This document shows positions 13,603-35,314 of a stretch of 35,402 bases of DNA, in pieces. This DNA is from Candidatus Saccharimonadota bacterium (lineage in GTDB: Bacteria > Patescibacteriota > Saccharimonadia > Saccharimonadales > Saccharimonadaceae): contig JAFRJX010000001.1 of NCBI GenBank assembly GCA_017432025.1, positions 1-35,402 of the forward strand. Direction: 5' to 3'. Position 1 is the first letter of the stretch; the number at the start of each line of letters is the position of its first letter. The notes beneath the pieces were generated by a model. It ran no database searches. It worked only from the letters and a program-made list of their open reading frames with translations, and was not told the origin of the DNA. The position numbers were made by a program, and so were the translations under genes.

Positions 13603-13627
13603 AAATGGTCTTTGGGCCATTTTTTTA
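13603..13627 (+). terminator. Terminator of tRNA-Leu
   Basis: AAATGGTC (13603-13610), TTTG loop, GGCCATTT (13615-13622), then a T-run. It overlaps the stop codon of the convergent FISUMP gene. Confidence 0.85.
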
Positions 13628-16600
13628 TTTTGCGACGCAACGGATTGCGACACCATTACTTCTGGCGGAGCCACCGAAAGAAGTACCCGAATCAGTAAGA
13701 CTCATGATGTCCATATTTTCACTACTGGACCAAGTTGAAGTCCAATAGTAGCCAGATGTGCCTTGATATGAGACGTTGCTGAAGAACAGACCGGAGAGAA
13801 CGAAGCCAGCTCCACCGTTTGCGATTGATGCTCTCATAAGGCCACTAGCACTGTATTGTTGATAGATGGTTCGTGTTTCTCCGGAAGTGCCACCGGTTGG
13901 TAGTCTCCACCCAGCAGGGCAGATATCCTCGTAAGCACTACTACTATTGGAGTTTCCCGTTTTTGTTCCGGCAGAAGCGGCATAGTAGTTATAGAGTGTG
14001 CCGTAGGCGGTACCGGAAGTTGAGTCTGTACCAGAAGTGTTAATAAATTCACCAGCGGTATAAGTATTTGTTCCAGATGTCTTCTTCCAGCCATTAAAAG
14101 TGGAAGCTGTTATTGTCGAAGAGATATTAGTATTAGTAATGGTGAGATCATTAGTGAGCGTAGTGCGCCCTAGATCCAGGTTTTCGGCCATCCAGATTTT
14201 TCCGTCTTTCATCTTGGCGACTTTGTAGGTTCTATTATCACGATTATCTATAAGGTCATATGTGGTGCTGTCTGCCATTGAAGCGAGGACGGTTGCCTTT
14301 TGACTAGAGGATAATTCTTTAAAATGCTGCATATAGGTTATATTAGAAATAGTTAGCGGTTCGTCCAATATACATCGTATGGATTTCCCGGTATAACCGT
14401 AGGTTAAAGAATTTGTTGGATCGACGGTTGAAGTACTAAGACTCATATTTCGAACATAGCTATTAAGCCTAGTAGAGGACCAGTAGTAGCCATTATTCCA
14501 ATTCGTTGGAGTAGAATTACTGAAACTGCCAGCGAGGGCGAAGGCGGCTCCGCCGTTTGCGACTGACGCCCTCATAAGAGCGTAAGAATTATATTTTTGG
14601 TAGAGAGCGCTAAACTCTCCGAAATTTCCACCGGTTGGAAGTCTCCACCCAGCAGGGCAAATATCATATTGGGGGCTATTGGTGTTGTTGCTTCCGGAAA
14701 TGGTTCCGGCAGAGGCAGCGTAGTAGTTGTAAAGCGTGCCAAATGCAGTATCAGATGTTGCGTCAGAACCGGCCGTACTGATGAATTCACCGGCATCATA
14801 AGTAGCAGAACCAGATGTTTTCTTCCAACTGTTAAATGTGGAAGCCGTCACTGTTGTGGATAGATTCGTGTTGGAGCTAGTGAGATCTGTCGTAAGTGCG
14901 GAACGACCGAGGTCCAAATTCTCCATCATCCAACATCTGCCATCATTTAGACGTTGAATGGTATAGGTATGATTATCACGAGCGTCAACAACTTGGGAAG
15001 GCGTAGAAGTACATTTATTAGATGATATGTTTTGTATAGATTCTCCTGCGGTGACCGTAAGGGTCGCGTCCATTGCGCCCATGGTGAAGGTCGTGGACTG
15101 AGTGGTAGTTGAACCTATAGTACCAGAAGTCGTAGACCAACCCGTAAATGAATATCCTGAAGATAGTTCAACGTCAATAGTATAGGTTTCTCCTTCTTCA
15201 AGCTGGATAGTACTGTTATTATAGAGGTAGTTACTTCCCCTGATTATGATTCTTGAAACTCCAGTACCAATGGATGTTTTAAGGGTATGAAGTGGCTTTT
15301 TAACGATACATCGAATAGCGTAGCCGTAGTCGCGACTGCTGATGTTGACTGGATAGACGCTTGACGTGTCAAGGGATAGGCCATACATTTCGGTGTTGCT
15401 GTATCTAGTGGTGGCCCAGTAGCGACCAACGCTGTTTGCAAGGGTCGGGGTACTGTTAGTGAAATAGCCAGCGAGGGCGAAAGCGGCTCCGCCATTTGCA
15501 ATTGGTGCCCGCATGAGAGCATTAGAATTATATTGTAAACTAAGGGCTCGGAACTCTCCTGTATTGCCACCGGTTGGAAGTCTCCACCCAGCTGGGCAGA
15601 TGTCATAGATAGCATCTTTATTGTTGGTTGACCCTGAAATATTCCTCATAGTGGCGGCGGCATAATTATATAAAGTACCATAAGGAGTACCAGAAGTTGG
15701 ATCCGTGCCGGATACATTGATGAATTCACCATTAACGAAGGTTTGTGTGCCGGAGGTCTTTTTGAAATCATCAAAGTTAGTGTAGGTGGCATTATCTGCG
15801 TAGTTAGTATTATCGGCAGTTAGATTATCTAGGAGGGTTTCTCTGCCTAAGTCTAGGTTTTCGGCCATCCAGATTCTGCCATCCTTCATCTTGGCAATGG
15901 AATAGGATTTATTGTCGCGATTGTCTATCAGGTTGTAGGTAGTGCTATCTGCCATGGAGTTTGCAACGGCAATGAGATCACCCTTCTTAAGATTCTTGAA
16001 ATCTTGAAGATATGCCAGATCAGAGATTTGTTTTTTGAGAACACATCGTACAGAGCGACCAGCAGAACGATTCGAGAGACTATAAGGGTTGCCTCCCGTT
16101 GCGGTGACTAATAAATATGACATCTTCGTATTATCAGATGCTGTAGATGACCAGTAGGTACCACGAGTACCTGTACTATATGGAGCGCCGTCCATGAAGA
16201 TTCCGTCAAGAGTAAAGCCTGCTCCGCCGCTTGTGGTTGGGGTATTCAGTACGGAACCAGATCCATATTCTTGGTAGAGTAGATTATAAAGATTGTCAAA
16301 TTCTTCGCCTTGACCACCAGTTGGAAGTCGCCATCCGGCTGGGCAAATATCATATATTACATTACCATCCGTAGTGCTCCCTGTGATGGTTCCTGCCGAA
16401 GCGGTGTAGAAATTATAGAGGGTGCCATATGGAGTATCGGAAGTGGGGTCGTTTCCGGTAATATTAATAAACTCGCCAGCGTCATATGTATCGGTTCCGG
16501 AGGTTGTTTTCCAGCTATTAAAGGTTGAGGCAGTGACGGTTGTGGAAATATTAGTGTTTGAAGATGTTAGATCGGTGGTAAGGGCTGTTCGGCCGAGGTC

Positions 16601-19600
16601 TAAGCTCTGCGTCATCCAACAATTGCCGTCAATAAGGCGTTGAATAGTATAGGAATGCATATCACGGTTATCATAAACGGTGGTTGGAGTTGAAGTGCAA
16701 ATTGAAGAACTCATGTTTTGCATAAATGGACCACTAAAGGTGGCAGCAGCGGTAAGGGTAGTATTGCCGGTAATACTTCTTAAATATGTAGAATCGGAGC
16801 TTGCCGTGTCGATGCTACCGGTTGTTGCAGTCCAACTGGAGAAGGAATAACCAGGCCCTAAGGAGGCATTAATAACATACCTTGTGCTTTCTTCGAGGGT
16901 AATAGTTCCATTGTTTGCTACAGAAACACCATTAATAGTAACGTCTGTGATGCCAGTTCCATACGAAACGGTTACAGTGTGAGTTGATTTTTTTAGGATA
17001 CAGCGAATGGCGCGTCCGTAACTACGATTACTACTGCTGTTTGGGGTTACACTCGATGTGTTTAGGTATAAGGAGTATCTATTTGTACCACTGCTTCTCA
17101 TAGAAGACCAGTAGGAAGCACTACTGCCCTGATTGGTTGGAGTGCTATTGCCAAAATAACCAGCAAGAGCGAAAGCGGCTCCTCCGTCTGCAATTCCAGC
17201 TCGCATTTTTGCAAGAGTGTTATATGAACTATTGCTGTAAAGAACACCAAATTCGCCCCAGCTATCGCCGACTGGAAGTCTCCATCCGGCCGGACAGATA
17301 TCATAGAGGGCGTCATACTCATGAGTGCTTCCAGTGATGGTACCGGCGGATGCTGCAACGTAATTGTAGAGGGTTCCATATGGAGTACCGGAAGTGCTAT
17401 CTGTTCCGGAGACATTAATGAACTCGCCGTCATCAAAGGATAGCGAGCCGGAAGTTTTCTTCCAACCGTTAAAGGTGGAAGCATCAACAGTAGTGGCAAT
17501 ATTTGTGTTCGTGGATGTAAGATTTGTTGTGAGGGTAGTACTGCCAAGATCCAGGTTTTCCATCATCCAGCAGCGACCATCGTCGAGACGTTGAACTGTA
17601 TATATATGATTGTCGCGAGTATCTTTTACATAAGATGGGGTAGTGGTGCAGTTACTTAAGGAAAGATTTTGCATAGTATAACCGTTGAAGGATGCGGTGG
17701 CTGTGATGGTGGCATCACTAGTGCCAACGGTAAAAGTTGTAGATTGGCTGGTAGTTGAGCCGATGGTGCCAGAGGTGGCAGACCAATTTGTAAAGGAATA
17801 GCCAGTTGCGACAACCGCATCGATGGAATAACTCATGCCTTCCTCAAGAGTGATAGAGGTATTCTCAGGTACGAGAAGGGTACCACTTACATCGACTTGT
17901 GTAACACTTGTTCCGTCGTATGCAATAGTAATGGTGTGAGACGGCTTTCTAGCCACGCACCGCACGGCCGCGCCTAGATTACGGTTGGCCTCATATTCTA
18001 ATCCTCCCCAATCATCATTGGAGTACATCCACATGGAATCGGAATAACCTGTGGCTGTTGAAGTCCAGTAACTACCGGATTCTCCCTGCGACTGTAAGCT
18101 TGATTGAGAAAACTCACCAGAATATGGGAATGCTGCACCACCGTTAGCGATGGCTGAATGCATACTACTGCCACTATAATTGCTATCAAGACTATTGACT
18201 TCGCTTTCAATTGGTAATCTCCATCCGGCCGGACAAATATCGGAATGAGCATTATAATCGTATGCGTTTCCGGCGACAGTACCAGCGGAGGCGGCATAGT
18301 AATTATAAAGCGTTCCGTATGAAGTGCCGGTCGTAGAATCTGTCCCGCTAAGCGAAACGAATACACCTGAAGTTAAACTGGCTGAGCTAGTGGTCTTTTT
18401 CCAGCTATTAAAGGTGGAAGCGGTCACACTGGCAAATGTATTAGTGTTGGCGCTGGTAAGATCGGTGGTAAGTGTCGTGCGGCCAAGATTAAGGTTTTCG
18501 GCCATCCAGATTCTGCCATCTTTCAATTTAGCAACAGCATAGACTCGATTATCGCGATTGTCGGTCAGGTTATAGGTGGTGTTTTCTGCCATGGAAGCAG
18601 TGATTCCTGCGAGTTCATTTTTGGTTAGATTCTTAAAGTCTTGAAGATAATTAAGATCGGAGATTTGTTTTTTAAGTATGCATCGTATAGCATACCCACT
18701 GTAGCGAGGGCTGACGCCGTTTGAAACATATGATGTACTAACGACTAGATTATACATATATGTGCTACTGTCTCTTTTAGAGGACCAATAGTAGCCATAG
18801 TTGCCTTGGCTGGTAGGAGTGCTATTGGTAAAGTCACCAGAGAGGGCGAAAGCAGCTCCGCTGTTTGCGACTGGCGCTCTCATAAGAGCATTGGAATTAT
18901 ATTCTGCATAGAGAGCCTGAAATTCTCCGGTGCTACCGCCGGTTGGAAGGCGCCAGCCAGCCGGACAAATATCATATTGAGCGTCACTGGTATTTGTTCC
19001 TCCGGTAATAGTTCCGGCAGAAGCAGCATAATAGTTATAAAGGGTGCCGTATGCAGTGCCGGAAGTTGCGTCCGTGCCCTCAATAGGTATTAATTCGCCG
19101 GCGATGTTGGTCGCATTGCCGGAGGTTTTTCTCCAGCCGTTAAAGGTAGATGTAGTAACAGTGGAGCTAATATTGGTATTGGCGCTGGTAAGGTTTGTGG
19201 TAAGAGGAGTACGGCCGAGATCCAGGTTTTCCATCATCCAACAATTACCATCGTCGAGACGCTGTACGGTATAGATATGATTATCACGATTGTCTTTGAC
19301 TAGCCTAGGGGTTGAGGTACAAAGAACGCTACTAAGGTTTTGCATATCTGAACCAATAAATGCTACATTGGCGGTAAGAGTGGCATCGGTGGTACTAATG
19401 GCGTAGGTCGTAGATTGAGTATTACTAGAGCCAATTGTGCCAGAAGTAGCAGACCAGGAATCAAATGAATAGAGGGTCTGGTCGTAGGTCATATTGATTG
19501 GATATGATGCGCCCCGAATTAATTTAACGGTTTCGCCATTTGCAATAGTTACACCGCCGACGGTTACTCCGGTGACGCCGGTACTATAGTTTACTGTGAG

Positions 19601-20218
19601 GATGGAAGACGGGATGATGTTGGCGGTTGCTTCAAGGATTAGATTTTCGTTAATATAAGTGCCGGATGGCAACGAAGTATCGGCACGGGCGCCGAGGGAA
19701 ATAGTGTAGTTTTTAGCGGTGGTGTTTGCGGTCGAAGTGCGGTCTAAAGTGACAGCAGTTGTGCTGACGCCAAAATACCGGCTATTAGATTCAGAATTGT
19801 AGAAGTTCGGTTTAAAGCCCCAACGATTATTAAGGGTGGTGTTGCTGCTAGTTGAGAATTGTTCAGCGGTTACGCTGGAAGCAAGGGAAGTGAATGAGTT
19901 GTCGTCTTTGTCGATGGTAGTTTTGGTGCTACGAACCGATAATGCGTAGCCGGTGTAGTTACTGGTTGCTACAGAGAAGGAAATATCATTAGCACCTGAG
20001 GTAGTAGCAAAGACACCAGTTTTTGATGGGTCAATTGTGATGCTTGCTGCATTATTAATGGAGGTCATAGTAATAGCGGTTTCACCGGTGAGGTCGGTGA
20101 TGGCTTCGGCAGATTCTTGATTCTTAGCGGCTGGGTTGATGATGGAACCAAAAAGGATTACTGCACAGATGGATGCAGCTATGCCAACCGCACGATGTCC
20201 CTTCCGTATTTTTAACAT
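13625..20218 (-). CDS. Giant secreted protein with seven FISUMP domains
   Basis: 2197 residues. An N-terminal signal peptide (hydrophobic AVGIAASICAVILFGSII, likely cleaved after SAEA near 39) precedes a beta-rich domain (about 40-200) shared with other secreted proteins in this window. After that come four repeats of a beta-sheet module containing YSF..W.ATSGTIGS and seven FISUMP domains starting near 292, 543, 849, 1166, 1422, 1728 and 1981. FISUMP (Fibrobacter succinogenes major paralogous domain) hallmarks are DNRDNH.YTVQRL, CWMMENLDLG, YDICPAGWRLPTGG and AIRCILKK. Type A domains (1, 3, 4, 6) have four conserved Cys; type B (2, 5, 7) lack the first two. No LPXTG and no C-terminal membrane helix are seen, so how it stays at the surface is unknown. 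Adhesion or binding is a guess. No Shine-Dalgarno sequence precedes the ATG. Confidence 0.93.
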   Translation of the reverse strand: MLKIRKGHRAVGIAASICAVILFGSIINPAAKNQESAEAITDLTGETAITMTSINNAASITIDPSKTGVFATTSGANDISFSVATSNYTGYALSVRSTKTTIDKDDNSFTSLASSVTAEQFSTSSNTTLNNRWGFKPNFYNSESNSRYFGVSTTAVTLDRTSTANTTAKNYTISLGARADTSLPSGTYINENLILEATANIIPSSILTVNYSTGVTGVTVGGVTIANGETVKLIRGASYPINMTYDQTLYSFDSWSATSGTIGSSNTQSTTYAISTTDATLTANVAFIGSDMQNLSSVLCTSTPRLVKDNRDNHIYTVQRLDDGNCWMMENLDLGRTPLTTNLTSANTNISSTVTTSTFNGWRKTSGNATNIAGELIPIEGTDATSGTAYGTLYNYYAASAGTITGGTNTSDAQYDICPAGWRLPTGGSTGEFQALYAEYNSNALMRAPVANSGAAFALSGDFTNSTPTSQGNYGYYWSSKRDSSTYMYNLVVSTSYVSNGVSPRYSGYAIRCILKKQISDLNYLQDFKNLTKNELAGITASMAENTTYNLTDNRDNRVYAVAKLKDGRIWMAENLNLGRTTLTTDLTSANTNTFASVTASTFNSWKKTTSSASLTSGVFVSLSGTDSTTGTSYGTLYNYYAASAGTVAGNAYDYNAHSDICPAGWRLPIESEVNSLDSNYSGSSMHSAIANGGAAFPYSGEFSQSSLQSQGESGSYWTSTATGYSDSMWMYSNDDWGGLEYEANRNLGAAVRCVARKPSHTITIAYDGTSVTQVDVSGTLLVPENTSITLEEGMSYSIDAVVATGYSFTNWSATSGTIGSTTSQSTTFTVGTSDATITATASFNGYTMQNLSLSNCTTTPSYVKDTRDNHIYTVQRLDDGRCWMMENLDLGSTTLTTNLTSTNTNIATTVDASTFNGWKKTSGSLSFDDGEFINVSGTDSTSGTPYGTLYNYVAASAGTITGSTHEYDALYDICPAGWRLPVGDSWGEFGVLYSNSSYNTLAKMRAGIADGGAAFALAGYFGNSTPTNQGSSASYWSSMRSSGTNRYSLYLNTSSVTPNSSSNRSYGRAIRCILKKSTHTVTVSYGTGITDVTINGVSVANNGTITLEESTRYVINASLGPGYSFSSWTATTGSIDTASSDSTYLRSITGNTTLTAAATFSGPFMQNMSSSICTSTPTTVYDNRDMHSYTIQRLIDGNCWMTQSLDLGRTALTTDLTSSNTNISTTVTASTFNSWKTTSGTDTYDAGEFINITGNDPTSDTPYGTLYNFYTASAGTITGSTTDGNVIYDICPAGWRLPTGGQGEEFDNLYNLLYQEYGSGSVLNTPTTSGGAGFTLDGIFMDGAPYSTGTRGTYWSSTASDNTKMSYLLVTATGGNPYSLSNRSAGRSVRCVLKKQISDLAYLQDFKNLKKGDLIAVANSMADSTTYNLIDNRDNKSYSIAKMKDGRIWMAENLDLGRETLLDNLTADNTNYADNATYTNFDDFKKTSGTQTFVNGEFINVSGTDPTSGTPYGTLYNYAAATMRNISGSTNNKDAIYDICPAGWRLPTGGNTGEFRALSLQYNSNALMRAPIANGGAAFALAGYFTNSTPTLANSVGRYWATTRYSNTEMYGLSLDTSSVYPVNISSRDYGYAIRCIVKKPLHTLKTSIGTGVSRIIIRGSNYLYNNSTIQLEEGETYTIDVELSSGYSFTGWSTTSGTIGSTTTQSTTFTMGAMDATLTVTAGESIQNISSNKCTSTPSQVVDARDNHTYTIQRLNDGRCWMMENLDLGRSALTTDLTSSNTNLSTTVTASTFNSWKKTSGSATYDAGEFISTAGSDATSDTAFGTLYNYYAASAGTISGSNNTNSPQYDICPAGWRLPTGGNFGEFSALYQKYNSYALMRASVANGGAAFALAGSFSNSTPTNWNNGYYWSSTRLNSYVRNMSLSTSTVDPTNSLTYGYTGKSIRCILDEPLTISNITYMQHFKELSSSQKATVLASMADSTTYDLIDNRDNRTYKVAKMKDGKIWMAENLDLGRTTLTNDLTITNTNISSTITASTFNGWKKTSGTNTYTAGEFINTSGTDSTSGTAYGTLYNYYAASAGTKTGNSNSSSAYEDICPAGWRLPTGGTSGETRTIYQQYSASGLMRASIANGGAGFVLSGLFFSNVSYQGTSGYYWTSTWSSSENMDIMSLTDSGTSFGGSARSNGVAIRCVAK
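13628..19345 (-). repeat. Internal tandem duplication of FISUMP modules
   Basis: Within the giant gene the unit A-domain + B-domain + beta repeat recurs. Unit 1 is about 19345-17675 (557 residues) and unit 2 about 16723-15038 (562 residues), with a shorter A + beta-repeat unit at 17674-16724 and a final A + B unit at 15037-13628. A-to-B spacing is 251, 256 and 253 residues, so the copies arose by duplication of a fixed block. Residue positions come from the MQN, IQN or MA(E/D) that begins each domain. Confidence 0.85.
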
Positions 20219-27583: not shown

Positions 27584-27612
27584 AGAAAATCTTTATAAGT
27601 TTAAAGTTATGT

Positions 27613-27620
27613 GTTATAAT
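27613..27620 (+). promoter_or_regulatory. -10 box of tRNA-Gly
   Basis: TGTTATAAT with TATAAT at 27615-27620, 11 nt before the tRNA. The -35 is weak (TTTATA, 27592-27597, 17 bp upstream). Confidence 0.65.
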
Positions 27621-27631
27621 AGATTAAACGT

Positions 27632-27708
27632 GCGAATGTAGCTCAGTTGTTTAGAGCGCTTCCTTGCCAAGGAAGAGGTCGAGAGTTAGAGTCTCTTCAT
27701 TCGCACCA
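27632..27708 (+). tRNA. tRNA-Gly (anticodon GCC) with altered D- and T-loops
   Basis: 77 nt. Acceptor GCGAATG/CATTCGC, D stem GCTC/GAGC, anticodon stem CTTCC/GGAAG with loop TTGCCAA (anticodon 27666-27668), T stem GAGAG/CTCTT, and encoded CCA. Two normally invariant bases differ. The D-loop reads AGTTGTTTA where AGTTGGTTA is usual (position 19 is U, not G). The T-loop reads TTAGAGT where TTCGAGT is usual (position 56 is A, not C). The two changes are complementary. All helices are intact, so this looks like a functional tRNA and not a pseudogene. Confidence 0.92.
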
Positions 27709-33084: not shown

Positions 33085-33115
33085 TGTTATAATAATTATG
33101 TTTAGTAATGGAGGT
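33085..33115 (+). promoter_or_regulatory. Methyltransferase promoter and ribosome binding site
   Basis: TGTTATAAT with TATAAT at 33088-33093; GGAGGT (33110-33115) lies 7 nt before ATG 33123. This rules out the in-frame ATG 33108 that overlaps the site. Confidence 0.75.
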
Positions 33116-33122
33116 AATAATC

Positions 33123-34205
33123 ATGGAAAAGCTGAAGTGTGCTGGATTCTTCGCGGGCGTTGGTGGTATTGAGAAAGGTTTAGAAAAAACCGGAAGATTT
33201 GAGACTGTATATGCCAATGAATTTGACAAATACCCTTGTGAAACGTTCGACCTAAACTTTGATATTAAGGCTGATTGTCGCGACATTCATGACGTGAAGT
33301 CTAGTGAAATACCTGATTGTGATGTAATTACTGGTGGTTTTCCATGTCAGGCTTTTAGCATTGCTGGGCTCAGAAAAGGTTTTGATGATGAAAAAGGCAG
33401 AGGAACTCTTTTCTTTGAACTTGCAAGAATCATCGAAGATAAGCAACCGAGCATAGTTTTACTTGAAAATGTGAAGAATCTTGTTAGTCATGACAATGGA
33501 AACACTTTTAGAGTGATTCTTGAAAAACTGGAGAGTCTTGGATATTTCGTAAAATATCAGGTTTTAAACGCTATGGAATATGGCAATACTCCACAGAACC
33601 GTGAGAGAATTTATATTGTTGGCTTTAAGGATCGGGAAGTTTATAAGAATTTTGAATTTCCACACCCTGTGCAGCTAACTTCAAAACTTGACGACATTAT
33701 TGATTTTGAGACAAAACTTGACGATAGATATTATTATACTGACGGTAAGTATAAAGGTGATATTTACGATAAGCTCGTTGAGGCAATGGATGATGATCGT
33801 GCTGTTTATCAATGGCGAAGGCATTATGTCAGGAAGAATAAAAGCGGTGTTGTTCCAACTTTGACAGCGAACCAAGGTGAAGGTGGTCACAATGTGTGCC
33901 TAGTTAAAACTAAACATGGTATTCGGAAAATGACTCCACACGAATGTTTTAATACGCAGGGTTTCGACGAAGACTTTAAACTACCAAAACAAAGTGAATC
34001 GAGACTCTATAAACAAGCTGGTAATTCTGTATGCGTTAAAGTAATTAATAGAATTGCTGATAAGATTGTAGAAGCTATTGATTTAGCTGAGGAAGGCCGT
34101 TATTCAATGGCTTCGGTTATTCAGGAATCAAGTGTTCCGTCAGAGCCTGCATTGTCAACTATACCGGTAGAGTCTATTTCAGACGAGTCCATGAACGCCT
34201 CGTAA
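33123..34205 (+). CDS. DNA (cytosine-5-)methyltransferase, type II
   Basis: 360 residues. It transfers a methyl group from SAM to C5 of cytosine in a specific DNA site. Motif I is AGFFAGVGGIEKGLE, motif IV GGFPCQAFSIAG with catalytic Cys75, motif VI LENVKNL, and motif VIII QNRERIYIVGF. Motifs IX-X are VPTLTANQGEGGHNV and YKQAGNSVCVKVI. The variable target-recognition part (about 180-250) is short, so the recognition sequence cannot be read. The last ~28 residues are Ser/Glu-rich and lie in the region overlapping the convergent gene. The gene is more AT-rich than ligA next to it, which suggests acquisition. It presumably protects DNA from the nuclease encoded opposite. Confidence 0.95.
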   Translation: MEKLKCAGFFAGVGGIEKGLEKTGRFETVYANEFDKYPCETFDLNFDIKADCRDIHDVKSSEIPDCDVITGGFPCQAFSIAGLRKGFDDEKGRGTLFFELARIIEDKQPSIVLLENVKNLVSHDNGNTFRVILEKLESLGYFVKYQVLNAMEYGNTPQNRERIYIVGFKDREVYKNFEFPHPVQLTSKLDDIIDFETKLDDRYYYTDGKYKGDIYDKLVEAMDDDRAVYQWRRHYVRKNKSGVVPTLTANQGEGGHNVCLVKTKHGIRKMTPHECFNTQGFDEDFKLPKQSESRLYKQAGNSVCVKVINRIADKIVEAIDLAEEGRYSMASVIQESSVPSEPALSTIPVESISDESMNAS

Positions 34206-35314
34206 CTTCCGATTTTTGCAAAATCAATTGAGTAAACTAGATCGTCTTCTTTTGTGATTCGAACTGAATCAATGCCGTATTTTTCTAACATCTCATATGT
34301 AATTAATTCTTGTGGATCAATTTTAAAGACGTCGTCAATGAGCCAATGGCCTAAATCCTTGTTTGGGTTTGTCATCAATGCTTTGTCACCTTGCTGGCAT
34401 ATTTTTGCTGATAATTCTTTGCCATTTGGAAGAATAAGTTTAAATGGTTGGTCACTAGGCGGGAAAAACGGCCTGAACTTTCTGTTGAATTCTTTCGAAA
34501 TTGCAATGTATGCTTCATAAATATCTCGTTTTCTTCCACCAGAAAACCTTGCGTTAAGGGCTGCTTTTTCTTGGACATATTTCCCACGCTCTTTCGTAAA
34601 AGTGTATAGTGGTAGGAAAACATGTTCTTTTTCTTTTTGCAGTTCTCCGGCAAAAACTATTTCACCGTCTTTTGAGTTTAGAATTCTTTGTTCTAGGAGT
34701 AGGAAAGGATCTTCGATAATTTTAACCTTAACGGTATCAAGAATTTGAATATTCTTAAAATCTTTATATAATGTACTTTTTGACGTATTAAATGAATAAT
34801 TATTCTTTCTGTCGTTGAATGTAATTATGTTCCTGTTCTTTTTTATGCTGTTAATTTTGTCGATGTCAATTAATTCGAGCGGACATTCTGCGACTTTGAT
34901 AATACCTTTGTCACGGATAGTGCAATGATACACCATCTTATTCAGATCGTAAGTGCGCATTGTAAACAGTATCCTATCATTACGTAACTGCGAAACGTAT
35001 TTAACCATTTCCTCTGTTTTTAAATTTTCATACATTGGTTTTTGAGAATTAAATTCAGCAATCTTTTGAAGATTGGACCCAACCCATGTTTTTATGCCTA
35101 TGCCAGTATGGCCTTTTCTCGCATCGGCAGTAATATCTGAGCGCGAAAGGTTTTCTGCGTCTAGATACTTACAAAAAACGTTTTCCGTTACGCGAGATGC
35201 TAGATATGGTCTTTCGCTGCTGGAAAAAAGGTTAGATAGTGATCCTATTAGCGCAAGCATTTTTTTATAATAATTCTTTTCAAAGTCTGTATTATCTGAT
35301 TCGTAGAAGGTCAT
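34121..35314 (-). CDS. Putative type II restriction endonuclease paired with the methyltransferase
   Basis: 397 residues, AT-rich and rich in Lys/Asn/Ile. I cannot name the family with certainty. Assignment as the restriction partner rests on its convergent position beside the methyltransferase, its size, the lack of membrane segments, and a conserved-looking segment SRSDITADARKGHTGIGIKT (about 57-76). That segment has acidic residues before a beta strand ending in I-K-T, as in nuclease cores. No HKD motif is seen. The ATG follows AAGGAATAATT. The last 85 bp overlap the methyltransferase 3' end on the opposite strand. Its Ser/Asp-rich C-terminus is probably set by that overlap. Confidence 0.7.
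   Translation of the reverse strand: MTFYESDNTDFEKNYYKKMLALIGSLSNLFSSSERPYLASRVTENVFCKYLDAENLSRSDITADARKGHTGIGIKTWVGSNLQKIAEFNSQKPMYENLKTEEMVKYVSQLRNDRILFTMRTYDLNKMVYHCTIRDKGIIKVAECPLELIDIDKINSIKKNRNIITFNDRKNNYSFNTSKSTLYKDFKNIQILDTVKVKIIEDPFLLLEQRILNSKDGEIVFAGELQKEKEHVFLPLYTFTKERGKYVQEKAALNARFSGGRKRDIYEAYIAISKEFNRKFRPFFPPSDQPFKLILPNGKELSAKICQQGDKALMTNPNKDLGHWLIDDVFKIDPQELITYEMLEKYGIDSVRITKEDDLVYSIDFAKIGSYEAFMDSSEIDSTGIVDNAGSDGTLDS

Follow-up and report, generated by a model that had tools for sequence, protein, structure and literature searches.

The tRNA-Gly(GCC) gene and its elbow pair

The window (the whole analyzed stretch of DNA, 35,402 nucleotides) contains three tRNA genes: Leu(TAA), Cys(GCA), and a complete tRNA-Gly(GCC), which scored highest of the three against the Rfam tRNA model (Table 1). 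ARAGORN, Rfam, and direct reading of the bases agreed that every stem of its cloverleaf is paired and that CCA is encoded, as the initial annotation had stated. The elbow pair G19-C56 presents a flat face to the ribosome (in the A, P, and E sites), to RNase P, T-box RNAs, and proteins, and is treated as invariant. This pair is absent from the tRNA-Gly(GCC) of the window, which carries U19-A56 instead. The observation is real, and the change is indeed a compensated double change as originally described; the two altered bases had been placed at 27651 and 27693, i.e. wrong by one and by five positions, and actually lie at 27650 and 27688. The Leu(TAA) and Cys(GCA) genes, likewise as described before, are normal, with G18G19 and TTC in the ARAGORN structures. 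In the T-stem of tRNA-Gly(GCC), the pairs G49-U65 and G51-C63, known for strong binding of EF-Tu (PMC4052509), are retained. The term 'Levitt pair' refers to 15-48 and not to 19-56 (PMC9976931).

Two further features of the window were recorded. A C5-cytosine DNA methylase gene adjoins a gene whose product has a C-terminal domain of the NgoFVII restriction enzyme type, and the two are likely a restriction-modification pair. The by far largest open reading frame of the window has a length of 2197 aa.

Table 1. Features of the window (positions are those of the whole stretch)
Feature	Position	Strand	Basis
tRNA-Gly(GCC), complete, CCA encoded, discriminator A73	27632..27708	+	ARAGORN; Rfam RF00005, 70.1 bits; base reading
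Promoter-like site TTTATA-17-TATAAT (with TG), just upstream of tRNA-Gly(GCC)	27592..27620	+	consensus scan, 10/12 matches
G18 (27649, kept) and U19 (27650, normally G19), D-loop AGTTGTTTA	27649..27650	+	sequence; D-loop from ARAGORN structure
Anticodon GCC, decodes GGU/GGC	27666..27668	+	ARAGORN; codon count
T-loop TTAGAGT: U54, U55, A56 at 27688 (normally C56), G57, A58	27686..27692	+	sequence; T-loop from ARAGORN structure
A73 of tRNA-Gly(GCC)	27705	+	base reading
Encoded CCA of tRNA-Gly(GCC)	27706..27708	+	base reading
2197-aa open reading frame	13625..20218	-	
C5-cytosine DNA methylase gene and adjoining NgoFVII-type gene	33108..35314		

A probable working gene and sole decoder of GGU and GGC

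The organism's own genome (858,689 bases, 97.1% complete) was searched as a whole, and ARAGORN was run on all matches. Among 46 distinct tRNAs, only one copy with the anticodon GCC was detected; no second tRNA-Gly(GCC) was found in this 97.1% complete genome. The Gly(UCC) and Gly(CCC) tRNAs of the same genome carry G18G19 and C56. Within the 17 open reading frames of the window, GGU and GGC account for 479 of 664 glycine codons (72%). A TATAAT-like box was seen at the same place upstream of the gene in most relatives, with flanks otherwise unrelated. Because of the single GCC copy, the codon use, and the promoter-like site, the gene looks like an expressed and needed one, and like the sole decoder of GGU and GGC. 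In a relative whose genome was completely fetched (G151), tRNA-Gly(GCC) is likewise the single GCC tRNA.

About 20 further genomes from the genus, each a different species, carried the identical 77-mer with unrelated flanks; named public records with the identical tRNA belong to Candidatus Saccharibacteria, which bears out that the organism is a Saccharibacterium. Because this 77-mer recurs in unrelated surroundings, and because 52 distinct sequences of the class (see below) are all U-A or A-U, chance or error is excluded as the source of the altered pair. That a sequencing error, a pseudogene, or a silent extra copy should lie behind U19-A56 has therefore a negligible probability. The gene recurs in independent assemblies, its promoter-like box is conserved, it is the single copy found, and the large majority of glycine codons in the window depend on it; support for any of the three was not found in the data surveyed. 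Error, pseudogene, and a second normal copy were accordingly discarded, in agreement with the absence of any sign of a sequencing error and of a second gene, for which a check had been proposed in the initial annotation. Its reading as selection and not decay is supported as well. We consider it very probable that the gene is a functional sole decoder with a compensated pair fixed by selection.

Survey of tRNA-Gly(GCC) in the Saccharibacteria

We surveyed 393 genomes of the class with a sequence pattern that left positions 19 and 56 open. This pattern matched in 316 genomes, and when A or T was required at both positions, again 316 were obtained. A looser pattern recovered 40 of the 77 leftover genomes, all of the same kind; in the remaining 37, neither pattern gave a tRNA-Gly(GCC) gene. 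All 356 genes found had A or U at both positions, and G19-C56 was not found in any of them (356 genes, 393 genomes); C19-G56 was not seen in the tRNA-Gly(GCC) of the class either. Matches listed individually (about half of the 316) were all U19-A56 or A19-U56, and the rest had A or U at both positions. The 52 distinct full-length sequences with A73 comprised 36 with U19-A56 and 16 with A19-U56; none was mismatched and none had G-C. The state of the window gene is thus not a peculiarity of one genome, as it had first appeared, but class-wide and alternating with A19-U56. In the tabulation of bases 19 and 56 that had been suggested for Saccharibacteria, U-A indeed proved common, A-U occurred as well, and G-C never.

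In other respects, the tRNA resembles the canonical bacterial tRNA-Gly(GCC), sharing with it the cloverleaf, the anticodon GCC, G18-U55, U54-A58, G53-C61, the encoded CCA, and the strong EF-Tu pairs of the T-stem. In contrast to the canonical G19-C56, the class tRNA has U-A or A-U throughout. It also combines A73 with a dimeric GlyRS, whereas U73 was read in nearly all of the other phyla.

Both forms of the pair were found among close relatives. Among the matches listed for genus g1, all were U-A except G442 and G628, which were A-U. A-U was also found in the same family in G461 (genus g282) and in G493 and G670 (genus g287), and the families f151, f154, and f8 each contained both forms. The U-A and A-U forms thus interchange within families and within a genus, with a number of switches that, being taken from taxonomy without a species tree, is a rough lower bound. 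Two transitions via G-U suffice to turn A-U into G-C, while the step from U-A to A-U passes through a mismatch or requires a double change. As U-A/A-U switches need a mismatch or a double change, yet no G-C appears, we infer that G19-C56 is probably selected against in the tRNA-Gly(GCC) of this class. Positions 19 and 56 covary, staying Watson-Crick as U-A or A-U, and because they do so, the elbow should fold normally.

In three genomes, the last 26-31 bases of tRNA-Gly(GCC) were repeated just downstream, about 82 bases apart (G007:C10:3873-3986, G009:C23:30556-30585, and G010:C23:18726-18836). By analogy, these repeats resemble the attachment sites of integrating elements.

Other isoacceptors and other tRNAs of the class

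Of 117 class genomes, 90 yielded genes for Gly(UCC) and Gly(CCC) with a pattern that favored GG in the D-loop and left positions 54-56 open, so that a change at C56 would usually have shown. They carried G19-C56 in these 90 genomes with one exception, a Gly(UCC) with A19-U56 in G283. As judged from these sequences, the replacement is specific to the Gly(GCC) isoacceptor.

A few other tRNAs of the class are altered at the elbow. A second compensated elbow pair, A19-U56, is present in the tRNA-Ala(UGC) of the organism's own genome (D-loop AGTTGATTA, T-loop TTTGAGT; loci L001/L009, region G000:C1:7256-7424). Gly(GCC) is the only tRNA altered at 19-56 in G151; in G264, Gly(GCC), Ala(GGC), and Pro(UGG) are altered, the latter to A19-U56. 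Counted over four class genomes, exceptions at position 56 occurred in 7 of 30 strong-box tRNAs versus 0 of 114 others, a contrast for which the P value is optimistic, the four Gly genes sharing descent.

Changes at neighboring positions were also noted. In the tRNA-Gly(CCC) of the own genome (L070, G000:C3:81017-81088), whose T-loop is TCCGACT, the near-invariant U55 is replaced by C55, as it is in nearly all listed genomes of the genus. The tRNA-Cys(GCA) genes of G151 (L330) and G264, which belong to other families, have A18 together with G55 (GAGGAGTTA/TGCAAAT and GAGCAGTTA/TGCAACT), as if both partners of the adjacent tertiary pair 18-55 had changed in concert. A still odder T-loop, AGCGTTA, was read in the tRNA-Cys(GCA) of G125, a genome represented by partial sequence only.

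Compensated swaps outside the class

Elsewhere in the phylum, near matches to the tRNA of the window carry GG and TTC, and A19-U56 in Gly(GCC) was confined to the families f73 and f103 among about 220 genomes. A scan for any anticodon in 240 genomes of the phylum, covering one common type of D-arm, returned swaps in Gly(GCC), Ala (UGC, GGC, and CGC), one His, and one Thr tRNA. The same kind of scan in 236 Clostridia gave Gly (GCC, UCC, and CCC) and two Arg-CGN tRNAs. Named genomes with A19-U56 in Gly(GCC) comprised uncultured Clostridia, Labilibaculum, Bdellovibrionota, SAR86, and Peregrinibacteria; Gly(UCC) was altered too in Labilibaculum and in a Flavobacteriales genome. These sporadic swaps affect the same isoacceptor as in the class and are likewise compensated, but they are A-U only, scattered, and mostly accompanied by U73, whereas the class tRNA has U-A or A-U with A73. 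Among the named genome matches, U19-A56 in Gly(GCC) was restricted to the set with A73 (i.e. the Saccharibacterial type).

On viral contigs, A-U and U-A swaps at 19-56 were common, nearly always Watson-Crick as in the class tRNA, and mostly in tRNA-Arg. The swapped viral tRNAs are accessory, in contrast to the tRNA-Gly(GCC) of the class, which is the cell's sole decoder. Short D-loops (AGTGGATA) may be mistaken for G18-A19 by the any-anticodon pattern. The viral matches were for this reason filtered again to keep D-loops lacking GG, and reading of the cellular matches by eye showed no such case. The largest viral enrichment was found for Arg, including the anticodon UCU, a reader of a weak box. 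With Arg left out, Gly, Ala, and Pro made up 22 of 52 viral tRNAs with A-U versus 28 of 226 with G-C and the same D-arm type (P = 3e-6, an optimistic value, as are all P values here, the strong-box grouping having been chosen after the first scans and the events being related by descent). Swaps in cells and viruses together are enriched in Gly, Ala, and Arg. Because such exceptions exist, G19-C56 is typical of tRNA-Gly(GCC) without strictly defining it. The initial description of the pair as universal was too strong in view of the swaps in the organism's own Ala(UGC), in scattered bacteria, and in viral tRNAs; near-universal it remains.

Possible causes of the replacement

As the best overall explanation, to which we assign roughly an even chance, we propose an ordinary sole GGU/GGC tRNA with U-A for G-C at its elbow, selection against G19-C56 in this one tRNA, and, as the likeliest mechanism, a softening of the elbow. 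The adjustment of a tRNA to a strong anticodon is known from the tuning of the 32-38 pair, and an A/U elbow pair could act analogously, as a counterweight on the side of the tRNA body. The ribosome would grip a tRNA partly via the 19-56 pair and partly via the codon-anticodon duplex. Strong G/C codon pairing (Gly, Ala, Pro, and Arg-CGN) would then hold the tRNA too firmly, and an elbow pair with two hydrogen bonds and a different stacking face may restore uniform accommodation and translocation. Offsetting of strong codon-anticodon pairing by a softened elbow was judged the likeliest of the mechanisms considered, although its probability stays below even. The 19-56 pair is known to be contacted by the ribosome at each of its three sites, by RNase P, by T-box RNAs, and by a number of proteins; within the P site, the contact to G19-C56 includes L5, and a destabilized elbow slows translocation and affects frameshifting (PMC4810234). 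The L1 stalk also contacts the elbow (PMC3602588).

The elbow-tuning model fits Gly, Ala, and Arg-CGN, and a Pro(UGG) with A19-U56 later turned up as the idea of strong boxes would predict. It does not fit the viral Arg(UCU), nor Gly(CCC), whose codon pairing is expected to match that of Gly(GCC) in strength but which keeps G19-C56; moreover, most strong-box tRNAs have retained G-C. Because the viral enrichment peaks in Arg including UCU, amino-acid identity may outweigh codon strength, and the cellular exceptions are accounted for about equally well if the tRNAs are grouped by the subclass of their synthetase (Gly, Ala, Pro, His, and Thr).

A cause on the side of the synthetases or of tRNA identity is rather unlikely, though it and the tuning model fit better than the other explanations considered. 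The elbow may be read by the C-Ala domain of AlaRS, by Ins3 or B2 of GlyRS, and by ArgRS at A20; with such contacts lost or changed, the 19-56 pair would be freed or reshaped, or else a non-GC pair would separate tRNA-Gly from look-alikes. The exceptions cluster in Gly, Ala, and Arg, for whose enzymes contacts to the elbow or D-loop have been reported, among them those of C-Ala and of Ins3 or B2 (PMC9908026, PMC10485164). The organism's own AlaRS stops directly behind the editing domain and lacks C-Ala, as in 11 other Patescibacteria checked, and its GlyRS is of a compact 450-aa dimeric type with no recognized extra domain. However, one and the same GlyRS presumably also serves Gly(UCC) and Gly(CCC), which keep G19-C56, and two Patescibacteria (G131 and G173) with the same short AlaRS and the same GlyRS type have G-C in Gly(GCC). 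Most synthetases have no known elbow contact, yet their tRNAs keep G-C, so that a lost contact alone does not predict the change, and the Pro exceptions are not accounted for. A simple relaxation through loss of C-Ala, attractive for tRNA-Ala, was rejected as it fails on Gly(GCC) and on the split between isoacceptors. Binding of a nematode C-Ala drops when G18G19 is changed and recovers only partly with compensation at 56 (PMC10485164); swaps at 19-56 may thus have consequences wherever the elbow is read. A T-box regulator coevolving with the elbow was also sought, without an Rfam match in the GlyRS or AlaRS locus. The AlaRS of all 12 Patescibacteria checked (loci L157-L168) measured 564-690 aa and had no C-Ala.

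Under neutral drift, the ancestor of the class would have fixed an uncommon compensated swap and passed it on, the pair now and then flipping between U-A and A-U without effect on fitness. Only one ancestral event would be needed for most of the 356 genomes, and swaps do arise sporadically elsewhere. We regard such drift as improbable, given the repeated switching in a genus and several families that never reached G-C, and given sister isoacceptors that kept G-C. Still less probable is an escape from a factor reading the elbow, in which a tRNA with G19-C56 would fall prey to a nuclease or toxin or enter an undesired contact with RNA or protein, and other Watson-Crick pairs would be favored. 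The exclusion of one pair with two interchanging A/U alternatives, as well as the many swaps in phage tRNAs, would be in keeping with such an escape. On the other hand, the factor is putative, fixation across many families calls for an equally old and common agent, and C19-G56, which would serve equally, is missing from the class. Finally, the tRNA might be partly diverted to the synthesis of peptidoglycan bridges by FemXAB-type enzymes as in Staphylococcus, whose non-proteinogenic tRNAs are also tRNA-Gly with changed positions 18-19 (PMC4052509); such bridges commonly contain Gly and Ala, among other residues (PMC9976931). The staphylococcal tRNAs are extra isoacceptors, with both G18 and G19 replaced and with weak EF-Tu pairs (A49-U65 and A51-U63) (PMC4052509). 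The class tRNA, in contrast, keeps G18 and U55, compensates its change at position 56, retains the strong EF-Tu pairs, and is the only GCC copy and decoder. A tRNA of the staphylococcal type was rejected on these features (G18 kept, G49-U65 and G51-C63 present), and any diversion of this kind seems highly improbable.

Implications

Fixation of a compensated, isoacceptor-specific replacement of the elbow pair across a whole class is new, whereas such swaps as such are not. In the open-access literature, no report was found of A19-U56 or U19-A56 tRNAs of this kind, or of tRNA elbows in Saccharibacteria. The bias of the swaps towards Gly, Ala, and Arg suggests that the elbow may be tuned for individual tRNAs. 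As a tentative and more general proposal, bacteria (and phages) might adjust the strength of the elbow pair to codon-anticodon strength or to the amino acid, with G19-C56 counterselected class-wide; the 'invariant' elbow would then carry isoacceptor-specific information. In any case, the replacement in these tiny, host-dependent bacteria speaks for strong selection, of still unexplained origin, on a contact shared by nearly all tRNAs. A needed tRNA that never carries G19-C56 throughout a natural class, with its sister isoacceptors as internal controls, offers a direct way to probe the role of this pair.
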